Below, in pieces: positions 2,953 to 60,890 of a DNA stretch of 61,341 bases. The DNA is from Acidobacteriota bacterium. GTDB lineage: Bacteria; Acidobacteriota; Thermoanaerobaculia; Thermoanaerobaculales; Sulfomarinibacteraceae. Each line of letters begins with the position of its first letter. Position 1 is the first letter of the stretch. The stretch is from the NCBI GenBank assembly GCA_024641545.1, contig JAHECW010000008.1, positions 1 to 61,341 on the forward strand, written 5' to 3'. The notes under the pieces are model-generated. The model was not told the DNA's origin, made no database searches, and saw nothing but the letters and a program-made list of their open reading frames with translations. Both the position numbers and the translations under genes were made by a program.

Positions 2953-2982
2953 ATCTTAATACAGTACTCGACGGGCCCTCAA
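2953..2982 (-). promoter_or_regulatory. Promoter of the deoxynucleoside kinase gene
   Basis: TTGAGG, an 18-bp spacer and TAAGAT, which ends 9 bp before the ATG. No SD fits between, so the transcript would be nearly leaderless. The -35 overlaps the stop region of the upstream prenyltransferase gene. Confidence 0.5.
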
Positions 2983-3926
2983 GGGACCAGCCTGGCGATG
3001 ACGAAGAGCGAGCACATCGCGACCGACAGCAGTCCGTTGGCGGTGAAGAAGGCCGCGTCGACCGCGCTGAGGTCATCGGCGCGGACGAGGCGGTGCTGCC
3101 AACCCATGAGCACCGCCGCTGTCGCCACGGCGGCGAAACGAAGCCAACCGCCGCCGGCGGCCGCGGCGAAGGCGGCGAAGCCGGCGAGGGCGAGGACGTG
3201 GAAGAACCTGGCGATCCGAAGCGCAGCCCGTGGACCGACCGCGGCGGGGATGGAACGCAGCGAGTGCGATCGATCGAAGGACTCATCCTGGAGCGAGTAG
3301 ATGATGTCGAAACCGGCGACCCAGAACATCACCGCCGCGCCCAGCATCAGCGGTGGCGGCTCGATGGCTCCGGTCACCGCGATCCAGGCGCCGATGGGTG
3401 CGATGCCGAGGGAGAGACCGAGCCACAGGTGCGCCGCCGCGGTCCATCTCTTGGCGTATGAATAGCCGAAGAGCACCCCCAGGGTGGGAACGGCGAGCAC
3501 GAGACAGAGTCGATTGAGCATGGCCGCCGCACCCATGAAGGCGAGTGCGGCGATGACCGTCACGCGCCAGACGAAGCGACGGCTGAGCCGGCCCGCCGGC
3601 AGCGACCGATCGGCGGTGCGGGGATTGAAGGTGTCGAGTTCATGGTCGGCGAGCCGGTTGAAGCTCATCGCCGCGGTTCGTGCGCTGATCATGGCGATGA
3701 CCACCCATGCCCATGTCCCTGCCGACGGCCAGCCGTCTCCGGCAGCCGTGATCAGGGACATGACGGCGAAGGGCAGAGCGAAGACCGAGTGTTTGAAGGC
3801 GACCATGTCGGCAGCTTCGCCGAGCTCACCGAGGAGACCGTGGTTGACCGAGACCCTCGTTTCCCGCGGGTCGGCGGCGTTCCCGCCGGGCGTCGTCGTT
3901 TGCGGATCGCGGCGGGCTTTACGCAT
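2979..3926 (-). CDS. ubiA: UbiA-family prenyltransferase (probable MqnP / menaquinone synthesis)
   Basis: Polytopic membrane enzyme that attaches a polyprenyl chain to an aromatic acid. The first Asp-rich motif is NRLADHELDTFNPRTADR (from residue 90) and the second is FDIIYSLQDESFDR (about 210-223). At 315 aa, with an NPRT block after the first motif, it resembles the non-proteobacterial 4-hydroxybenzoate-type subgroup used in futalosine-dependent menaquinone synthesis. No mqn genes are present to prove this. A UbiE/MenG methyltransferase at 24.2 kb could act in the same pathway. The start is supported by TATACT ending 6 bp upstream (leaderless type). Confidence 0.87.
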   Translation of the reverse strand: MRKARRDPQTTTPGGNAADPRETRVSVNHGLLGELGEAADMVAFKHSVFALPFAVMSLITAAGDGWPSAGTWAWVVIAMISARTAAMSFNRLADHELDTFNPRTADRSLPAGRLSRRFVWRVTVIAALAFMGAAAMLNRLCLVLAVPTLGVLFGYSYAKRWTAAAHLWLGLSLGIAPIGAWIAVTGAIEPPPLMLGAAVMFWVAGFDIIYSLQDESFDRSHSLRSIPAAVGPRAALRIARFFHVLALAGFAAFAAAAGGGWLRFAAVATAAVLMGWQHRLVRADDLSAVDAAFFTANGLLSVAMCSLFVIARLVP

Positions 3927-3938: not shown

Positions 3939-4006
3939 ACCCGCACCCGCGCGCCGCCGTCACCGACTCGAGATCGCGACCCGCAACGATGGTTCGCCCG
4001 TTGACG

Positions 4007-4047
4007 GGGTGGAAGATTTGCTGTCACTGACAAGATCTTCTCCACCC
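4007..4047. repeat. Imperfect inverted repeat in intergenic region
   Basis: GGGTGGA at 4007-4013 pairs with TCCACCC at 4041-4047, with partial inner pairing (AGAT..TTG with CAAGATCT). There is no T-run on either strand, so it is not a clear terminator. It could be an operator or a structured leader. The 3939-4285 gap holds no gene, only this repeat, a sigma-54-type promoter and an unrecognised leader. Confidence 0.4.
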
Positions 4048-4168
4048 TCTGAGAGTTGAACTCTCGCTCCATTTGTAAAAATTTTTTGTCAGTTCCCGAG
4101 ATTCGGATCCATCGGTTGACTGGCCTTAAATATCCATTTTTGAATAACTTGAGATGGATCGACCGAAT

Positions 4169-4183
4169 TGGCACGAATCTCGC
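4169..4183 (+). promoter_or_regulatory. Sigma-54 (RpoN) type promoter upstream of ComEA-like gene
   Basis: TGGCACG-AATC-TCGC. The GG (4170-4171) and GC (4182-4183) doublets have exactly the -24/-12 spacing, and there is one mismatch to TTGC. It would give a leader of about 90 nt before the ATG at 4286, and that ATG has a strong SD. I could not recognise a riboswitch in the leader. Confidence 0.6.
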
Positions 4184-4285
4184 GATGTCCGGGGCACATC
4201 ACTCAGGGAGGTGCCCATGCAGAAGACCCGATAGCCAGCCAGCTCGGCCGATCGCAAGACATCAACCCGAACAAGGAGGAAGACA

Positions 4286-4633
4286 ATGATCCAGAGAAAC
4301 GCAGTCGTGTTTGTCGCCCTGATTCTCGCCGTGGCGTCGCTGGCGATGGCAGCTGATAACGCCGCGACCGGGGTCGTCAACATCAACACCGCGGGACCCG
4401 ACCAGCTCCAGCTGCTGCCGAGGATCGGTCCGGCGCTGGCGGATCGCATCATCGAGTTCCGTGAGGCGAATGGACTCTTCGGGAGCGTCGACGAGCTCGT
4501 CGCGGTCAAAGGCATCGGGGAGAGCTCGCTAGCCAGGCTGGCCCCCTATGTCACGACAACGGGGGCAACCACCCTGGATGCGAAGGTGAGGCTCCCGCGT
4601 TCGTCCGGCAGCGGCGCACCGGCCGCGAGCTGA
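4286..4633 (+). CDS. ComEA-like helix-hairpin-helix protein (exported)
   Basis: 115-aa protein with an N-terminal signal peptide (hydrophobic segment about residues 5-22, ending ASLAMAAD) and a tandem HhH domain starting VVNINTAGPDQLQLLPRIG (about 32-50) and continuing with VDELVAVKGIGE. It matches the ComEA DNA-binding domain, which binds incoming double-stranded DNA in the periplasm during transformation. It is a minimal ComEA without the membrane-stalk region of Gram-positive versions. SD AAGGAGGA at 4273-4280. A sigma-54-type promoter precedes it and a strong terminator follows. The next gene is a pseudopilin, which fits a link to type IV pilus DNA uptake. Confidence 0.9.
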   Translation: MIQRNAVVFVALILAVASLAMAADNAATGVVNINTAGPDQLQLLPRIGPALADRIIEFREANGLFGSVDELVAVKGIGESSLARLAPYVTTTGATTLDAKVRLPRSSGSGAPAAS

Positions 4634-4662
4634 TCTGAAACCAACCACAGCGTGGACGGGAT

Positions 4663-4687
4663 GCGGCCCTTCGGGGCCGCGTTTTTT
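4663..4687 (+). terminator. Rho-independent terminator after ComEA-like gene
   Basis: GCGGCCC-TTCG-GGGCCGC hairpin with a UUCG tetraloop, followed by G and six T. Confidence 0.93.
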
Positions 4688-11001: not shown

Positions 11002-11128
11002 GGGAGCCCACCATGGAACCCAGGCGACCTGCGGCACTCGCCGTATCCTCCTTAGTGCTGCTCCCTTCCGGGCCTGACACGGTTCGAAGGGCGACGATGC
11101 ACAGGGCCCGGGCTCCATGGTGGGCTCC
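11002..11128 (-). ncRNA. ffs: Bacterial small SRP RNA (4.5S)
   Basis: The RNA core of the signal recognition particle. On the minus strand the universal domain IV reads GTGTCAGGCCCGGAAGG, then GAGCAGCACTAAG, with a GGAA tetraloop and the asymmetric-loop residues that bind Ffh. The ends pair as a long helix: GGGAGCCCACCATGGA at the 5' end with TCCATGGTGGGCTCCC at the 3' end. At about 127 nt it is slightly longer than the E. coli form. It lies just downstream of two tRNA-Ser genes, a neighbourhood common in bacteria. Confidence 0.95.
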
Positions 11129-42154: not shown

Positions 42155-42185
42155 GACTTGGAGGTCCCTGCGCGGTTGGTGATGA

Positions 42186-42345
42186 GTGATACTATCGTTG
42201 AACCAACACCTATTTGAAGGGTTGCCGGGTTTTCCCGCTTCGATGCCTGCCCCGCGGTGGGAGACAGGCGGGGGACAGGTGCCCACCTGTGGTTTCGCAG
42301 GTTCAAATAGGCTCGCTCACACGGCCGTAGTGGGGGCCTCCCCTT
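42186..42345 (+). ncRNA. ssrS: Candidate 6S RNA (ssrS)
   Basis: The gap after zapA folds into a long hairpin. CCTATTTGAA (42209-42218) pairs perfectly with TTCAAATAGG (42302-42311). An inner stem CCTG-CCCCGC pairs with GCGGGG-(GA)-CAGG, leaving large internal loops, the general 6S plan. CCCCGCGGTGGG resembles the apical part of known 6S RNAs. Position after zapA is the classic 6S site. The exact ends are guesses, and an alternative hairpin ACAGGT-GCCC-ACCTGT competes. Confidence 0.5.
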
Positions 42346-60371: not shown

Positions 60372-60386
60372 TGGCATGGACATTGC
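60372..60386 (+). promoter_or_regulatory. Sigma-54 (RpoN) promoter of the pilin gene
   Basis: TGGCATG-GACA-TTGC, followed by TT, matches the sigma-54 consensus at every invariant base with correct -24/-12 spacing. It would start transcription near 60398, about 20 nt before the ATG. Confidence 0.85.
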
Positions 60387-60419
60387 TTTAAAGCTGGTTG
60401 GATTGAAAAGGAGGATCGC

Positions 60420-60890
60420 ATGCGCAGACAGAAAGGTTTCACTCTCATCGAGCTGCTGATCGTGGTTGCGATTATCGGAATCATCGCCGCTATCGCCATC
60501 CCGAACCTGCTCAACGCCATCAACCGTGCCCGCCAAAAGAGGTCGATGTCCGACATGCGGACCATCGGTACCGCCACCGAGGCCTACGCCGTCGACTGGG
60601 CGTACTACCCCAGCACCGGTGGTGACGTCAGCGTCCTGGCGGGCCTTGAGCCCCACCTGTCGCCGGTCTACATCAAGAAGACCCCGCCTACCGACGGCTG
60701 GCGCGAGCCCTTCCTGTGCCGTTCGGAGTCGCGGTTCTACACCCTGCTGTCGGCCGGTCGCGACAAGAACGTTGAGGGTGGCCTTGCCGACAGCGCCTAT
60801 GACCGTGATCCGACCACCGACATGGACTGCGACATCGTCTATGCCAACGGGACCTTCGTCTCCTATCCGGAAGGTGTCCAGACCGACTGA
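60420..60890 (+). CDS. Type IV pilin / GspG-like major pseudopilin
   Basis: 156 aa. Canonical prepilin start KG|FTLIELLIVVAIIGII (cleavage after Gly6, Glu at +5). The C-terminal globular domain has TPPTDGWREPFLCRSES and YTLLSAGRDKNVEGG, a GspG-type calcium-loop-like region, so it may be a type IV pilin or a type II secretion major pseudopilin. AGGAGG lies 6 bases upstream. A sigma-54 promoter before and a strong terminator after make it monocistronic, the usual pattern of major pilin genes. Confidence 0.92.
   Translation: MRRQKGFTLIELLIVVAIIGIIAAIAIPNLLNAINRARQKRSMSDMRTIGTATEAYAVDWAYYPSTGGDVSVLAGLEPHLSPVYIKKTPPTDGWREPFLCRSESRFYTLLSAGRDKNVEGGLADSAYDRDPTTDMDCDIVYANGTFVSYPEGVQTD

Follow-up and report, generated by a model that had tools for sequence, protein, structure and literature searches.

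On comparative sequence evidence, the leader of a ComEA-like gene from a member of the Acidobacteriota is a conserved minigene leader, in which a known minigene principle appears in a new setting: a sigma-54-type promoter is followed, near the predicted 5' end of the transcript, by a very strong Shine–Dalgarno (SD) sequence and an open reading frame (ORF) of one to six codons, with the gene's own SD and start codon lying farther downstream. The window analyzed here is the whole 61,341-nucleotide stretch of DNA, and the features of its comEA locus are collected in Table 1. Minigene leaders have so far been known from individually studied genes; this one was found by comparison to be kept across 15 of the 16 genera of an order, at one gene and behind one promoter type, and it suggests that DNA uptake in a little-studied lineage is also controlled after transcription. 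We found no description of a tiny ORF at comEA in the literature searched, which covered few subscription journals.

Table 1. Features of the comEA locus in the window (positions are those of the window).
Feature	Position	Strand	Basis
Distal TGTCA/TGACA half-sites TGTCACTGACA, candidate enhancer	4022–4032	+	Half-site at -148 to -125 in relatives
Proximal palindrome-like site TGTAAAAATTTTTTGTCA	4074–4091	+	8 of 10 to TGACA-N8-TGTCA
Sigma-54-type promoter TGGCACGAATCTCGC	4169–4183	+	9 of 10 to TGGCACN5TTGC, GG-N10-GC spacing kept
Predicted transcript start	4195	+	12 nt after the -12 base, from sigma-54 promoter geometry
First SD AGGGAGGTG	4205–4213	+	Near the predicted 5' end
Tiny ORF, ATG CAG AAG ACC CGA TAG (MQKTR*)	4217–4234	+	ORF of 1–6 codons in relatives
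Unstructured, U-poor spacer	4235–4272	+	Composition over 35 leaders; window leader z +1.39
comEA's own SD, AAGGAGG	4273–4279	+	Sequence
ComEA-like gene, 115 aa	4286–4633	+	Signal peptide-like N-terminus, one helix-hairpin-helix domain; HHH_3 and PDB matches
Terminator-like hairpin GCGGCCCTTCGGGGCCGC with T6, putative end of a monocistronic transcript	4662–4687	+	Fold z -4.05

By sequence, the product of the gene resembles a short secreted helix-hairpin-helix protein of the ComEA kind: it matches Pfam HHH_3 (E 2e-20), and its PDB matches include ComEA chains. The assignment given in the first-pass annotation, which had been drawn from the window's letters alone, holds on these matches, though the protein falls short of the cut-off of the NCBIfam comE model TIGR01259 (73.1 vs 152.35 bits). 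The gene stands alone, divergent from a ubiA-like gene (2979–3926, minus strand); the hairpin downstream of it was not reported by the terminator scan. Elsewhere in the window, between two genes, GCTAACA units form a short tandem repeat (836–877).

Of 59 relatives, 58 have a match to the ComEA-like protein, as does every one of the 37 genomes of the order, with one clear copy in each (G034 has a second, weaker match). The 37 genomes yielded 36 leaders from 16 genera. Dropped before counting were L053 (a contig end cuts the leader), L073 (no start found) and L074 (the second helix-hairpin-helix match, in G034), and L022 was retained in the counts as a miss; a further 17 distant relatives, found by a scan of genome contigs, were left out of the leader set. 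Starts of comEA were set by rule as the nearest ATG with an SD, with L023 shifted by hand 18 nt upstream, and for L014, L048 and L051, where another ATG lies close to the first SD, the ATG 4–9 nt after GGAGG was used. The leaders of the order are non-independent relatives; counted by genus, the tiny ORF is present in 15 of 16.

Taken alone, the promoter does not stand out from chance in the window, since the 16-base pattern TGGCACN5TTGCW, with up to two mismatches, gives 16 matches against 14.4 expected; per-leader shuffle P values, computed on single sequences, range from 0 to 0.1 over the 36 leaders. We nevertheless take the promoter to be real because a sigma-54-type site scoring 8–10 of 10 is present in all 36 readable comEA leaders of the order and RpoN is present in 34 of its 37 genomes (E 9e-134 in the window's own; the three genomes without a match include G016, which is 90% complete). 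The earlier description of a sigma-54-type site one base away from consensus is thus borne out. Sigma-54 promoter geometry puts the transcript start 12 nt past the -12 base, and the distance from this predicted start, near 4195, to the ATG at 4286 agrees with the leader of about 90 nt that had been proposed. The promoter scan gave no sigma-70 promoter within the comEA leader. Farther upstream, 25 of the 36 leaders have a TGTCA/TGACA half-site between -148 and -125 relative to the promoter (shuffles: mean 1.2, maximum 4), 26 have one between -98 and -78 (mean 1.2, maximum 5), and TGACA-N8-TGTCA is matched at 8 or more of 10 positions in 22 (mean 2.2, maximum 7). With their phased half-sites, the comEA promoters carry what are, by sequence, candidate upstream activator sites. 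The conserved promoter and these enhancer-like sites together give strong support to sigma-54 control of the ComEA-like gene.

The most constant part of the leader follows directly. In 35 of 36 leaders GGAGG lies 12–29 nt past the -12 base, at approximately +2 to +19 when counted from the predicted RNA start, and in 35 of 36 (15 of 16 genera) an ATG stands 4–8 nt after it and is closed by an in-frame stop after one to six codons, against 0.3 expected when the leader 3' of GGAGG is shuffled. The first-pass annotation had overlooked both this SD and the ORF. Early closure is specific to the reading frame of this ATG: a stop falls within six codons in 35/35 leaders in that frame, and in 14/35 and 2/35 in the other two, the 14 all being a TGA that overlaps ATGA. 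The first SD pairs better than comEA's own with the typed 16S tail in 30 of 35 leaders, the mean duplex energies being -15.6 and -12.2 kcal/mol. The encoded peptides are diverse. In the window's family (f1) they are MHDP, MHGP, MRDP, MNTS, MNTG, MDGS, MDAS, MEGN, MDD, MSGE, MTGT, MDTT, MQTT, MQKTR and one bare M, and in the family f2 they are M-x-HGP (MSHGP* is found among the relatives), M-x-SRGP, M-x-HSP, MALGP and MHDGG; in a conservation check of the kind applied to arrest peptides, HGP* was kept in much of f2 and variable elsewhere. All three stop codons are used, and in f2 Gly is written with four codons and Pro with three. Of 33 minimal changes, 18 fall at third codon positions (P 0.0097, a guide only, the columns having been counted without a tree). 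Judged from these comparisons, the ORF persists while its stop codons and third positions vary.

The arrangement is also nearly confined to this gene. In the window's genome, the promoter followed by GGAGG and ATG occurs 14 times, against once for the reversed control; among the 12 matches inspected, 11 head ORFs of 50–501 aa and only comEA has a 5-codon ORF; a further match, at the pilin, is a normal gene. Across the 37 genomes, the 4- and 5-codon patterns gave 38 matches (5 and 4 for the reversed controls), of which 30 end in a true stop, as the TRR of the pattern admits TGG, and 29 of these 30 are at comEA. Genome-wide, the combination of sigma-54 site, SD and tiny ORF is essentially limited to comEA.

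The first-pass annotation had instead read the leader as GC-structured and suggested a riboswitch, perhaps GEMM-like, a reading prompted by the reader's impression and the role of the gene. The comparisons point the other way, and the description as GC-structured is wrong. The window's leader folds with z +1.39, its stability being equalled or exceeded by 188 of 200 shuffles, and over the 36 leaders the mean is +0.89, most being less stable than their shuffles. Searched against Rfam over 3950–4330, the leader had no match even when E <= 10 was allowed, and none of the loci of six relatives gave a leader match at gathering score; elsewhere in the window, Rfam identifies a Small SRP RNA (11015–11113) and a 6S RNA (42162–42340). 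RNAalifold returned zero consensus pairs for either the 20 f1 leaders or the 16 f2 leaders, in MAFFT alignments that are imperfect in places (48 and 43% mean column identity). The motif CCGATAGCCAGCCAGCTCGG that had drawn attention is not conserved in relatives, and its CCGATAG is the end of the 5-codon ORF. A structured RNA of this kind is accordingly most improbable, and to the limit of sequence evidence the riboswitch reading is refuted. A hairpin over the first SD of the window (GGGCAC/GTGCCC) was set aside as absent from the relatives' leaders. What the leaders do share is the composition of the spacer. Its T content averages 8.7%, compared with 24.6% for the DNA upstream of the promoters, and the spacer is the poorer in T in 33 of 35 such pairs; the first 300 bases of comEA have 15.8% T, and 21 control 5' regions from the window average 21.3%. 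C makes up 37% of the spacer and G 22%, a balance that might suggest a Rho-type, C-rich leader.

Outside the order, the SD is kept more widely than the ORF. Among 21 class-level leaders, five have an SD with a tiny ORF (MENA twice, MSGT, MS and MKE) and 14 have only a strong SD (often AAAGGAGGTG), 85–167 nt 5' of comEA and with no usable ATG; in one neither element is clear, and one is unreadable. Promoters are weaker at this level, with 7 of the 20 scored reaching at least 8 of 10. Among 40 phylum-level leaders, seven have a promoter-like site directly followed by comEA's own SD, five have a strong SD far 5' of comEA, and the rest have neither clearly. A protein tree with 69 rows requires four changes in the state of the ORF, at least three of them forced by well-supported branches; the tree is built on few columns and includes 13 of the 40 phylum-level leaders, hand-picked for a readable promoter or first SD, so that its outgroup counts are biased. 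Because the tree needs these four changes, gain or loss of the tiny ORF seems to have occurred repeatedly around a retained SD, and since 14 of 21 class-level leaders keep a strong SD with no usable ATG, SD occupancy seems to be the core function of the element. These data also bear on whether the tiny ORF could be a relic, that is, a former comEA start next to the promoter, kept by inertia after the start moved downstream. The seven phylum-level leaders in which comEA's own SD is the first after the promoter would suit such a history; the ORF is too well kept for it, being present in 35 of the 36 leaders from 16 genera while its codons and stops vary, and we consider such a history very unlikely.

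The account we prefer, to which we assign somewhat less than an even chance, is that a ribosome docking at the 5' end shields the comEA mRNA from RNase E/G. The sigma-54-type promoter and upstream activator site would drive the gene, and the transcript, given the predicted start, would begin approximately 2–20 nt before the very strong SD and its ORF of one to six codons. Ribosomes would start at the tiny ORF, add a few residues and terminate immediately, leaving the 5' end almost always occupied by a ribosome or 30S subunit; this occupancy would conceal both the 5' end and the U-poor, unstructured spacer from RNase E/G, giving a long-lived mRNA from which comEA is translated at its own downstream SD. 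In part of the clade, a Pro or Gly before the stop may slow release and prolong occupancy. A constant strong SD at the predicted 5' end, with well-spaced ATGs closed by an early stop, fits such docking, and RNase E/G is present in all 37 genomes of the order (two copies in the window's own). Counted against it are L003, whose ORF is a bare ATG-TAG, L022, which has no ORF, and a hairpin found between SD and comEA in the family f7; the U-poverty of the spacer, for its part, may simply remove stray starts and stops.

The closest precedent, by analogy, is the mini-ORF of LEE4 (espADB) in enterohaemorrhagic E. coli, where SD occupancy is described as guarding the mRNA against RNase E (PMC8708949). 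There too a strong SD and an ORF, of six codons, sit in a long leader, much as a tiny ORF does in 35 of 36 comEA leaders; the LEE4 leader, as described there, is rich in A and U and belongs to a type III secretion operon that it heads, whereas that of comEA is U-poor, has its SD at the predicted 5' end behind a sigma-54-type promoter, and is kept over many genera. The STAB-SD of cry3A likewise lies near the mRNA 5' end, more than 100 nt from the gene, and is not used to start the gene (PMC4113751), a position that the first SD of the comEA leader shares, judged from the predicted transcript start; the SD-only relatives in particular resemble it. STAB-SD blocks RNase J1 (PMC4113751). In the order, by contrast, a tiny ORF accompanies the SD in most leaders, and blocking of RNase J was rejected for f1, where the enzyme is undetected: searches with TIGR00649 gave weak fragments or none (<25 bits) in f1, including the window's genome, with 47 bits in one f1 genome, and mostly full-length matches below cut-off in f2.

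SD binding may not be the whole of it. The last residue is Pro in 20 of 35 tiny ORFs (9 of 15 genera) compared with 3 of 45 window ORFs, and these ends are written with three different Pro codons and followed by three different stops, which suggests that the conserved peptide ends serve something beyond SD binding alone. We think it possible, though unlikely, that the leader is a dedicated, sigma-54-driven element that parks one ribosome on the 5' end: a translated ORF of four to six codons, its Pro or Gly end selected for slow termination, would make mRNA lifetime report the state of termination. If true, this would amount to a translation-state gate on competence, and the ORF would rank, to our knowledge, among the smallest conserved translated regulatory ORFs. 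A regulatory leader peptide would draw on the same Pro ends: slowed termination at M-x-H-G/D-P-stop, or at related endings, would respond to the state of release factor, EF-P, amino acids or charged tRNA and so determine how comEA is expressed. This reading has to contend with peptide sequences that diverge widely (MQKTR, MNTS, MDD, M), leaders that offer no alternative structure and SD-only relatives that make no peptide, and we judge it improbable, though still a serious alternative. Release is reported to be slow at C-terminal Pro and Gly, and in Mycoplasma a C-terminal Pro is reported to be without effect on expression (both PMC7246954). For txe, translation of the minigene mattered and SD binding alone was insufficient (PMC8708949). 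The axe-txe minigene is a two-codon ORF that acts in cis, upstream, to raise expression of its gene; it differs from the comEA ORF, as described there, in lying near txe, in depending on distance and in being neither at a 5' end nor at a sigma-54 promoter. Together with the conserved minigene of the order, the SD-only form in sister families offers a natural series for separating the effects of SD binding, translation and peptide.

A tiny ORF could also act on the gene through reinitiation, the strong SD capturing ribosomes that the ORF then frees to slide over the spacer and raise comEA translation. Leaders less structured than their shuffles (the mean z of +0.89 given above) would ease such a passage, and ORF-11 of class 1 integrons provides a precedent in which a short upstream ORF with an SD raises translation of the gene (PMC8876359). 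That ORF, however, has 11 codons, works by short-distance coupling and mainly serves genes without an SD (PMC8876359), whereas at comEA the stop-to-start distance of 47–118 nt is long for coupling and most leaders give comEA a good SD of its own. SD-only relatives moreover have no terminating ribosome, and the f7 hairpin stands in the path; we hold reinitiation to be an unlikely explanation, if one with some appeal, and retain docking as the preferred one. The hairpin itself, a strong GGGGGGCAC...GTGCCCCCC-type structure between the far SD and comEA, is present in the f7 leaders L057–L059, L061 and L062, whose folds are more stable than those of their shuffles (z -1.0 to -2.2).

Beyond the leader, the first-pass annotation had suggested RpoN control of pilus-based DNA uptake from the comEA promoter taken together with that of a pilin gene. 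Sigma-54 promoters occur at type IV pilin genes, and in the window one (TGGCATGGACATTGCT) stands directly 5' of the SD and start of a pilin-type gene (60372–60422). It shares with comEA the promoter type and a pilus or uptake context; unlike the comEA leader, it has no tiny ORF, the pilin SD coming directly after the promoter. Joint control of the two genes is possible, as both carry sigma-54-type sites. That much of the suggestion stands; a common activator does not follow from it, because the comEA-type half-sites are absent from the 200 bases upstream of the pilin promoter at 60372. A search for the exact palindrome in four relatives (G007, G009, G010 and G015) gave no readable enhancer regulon, but placed sites at comEA in each: both sites in G009, the single site in G015, one of two in G007 and one of approximately 40 in G010. 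The dispersed TGACA-N8-TGTCA palindromes of G010, about 20 times more numerous than in the other three, have purine or pyrimidine spacers, and some are arranged in tandem, every 55 bases (for example, C9:2930–3057).
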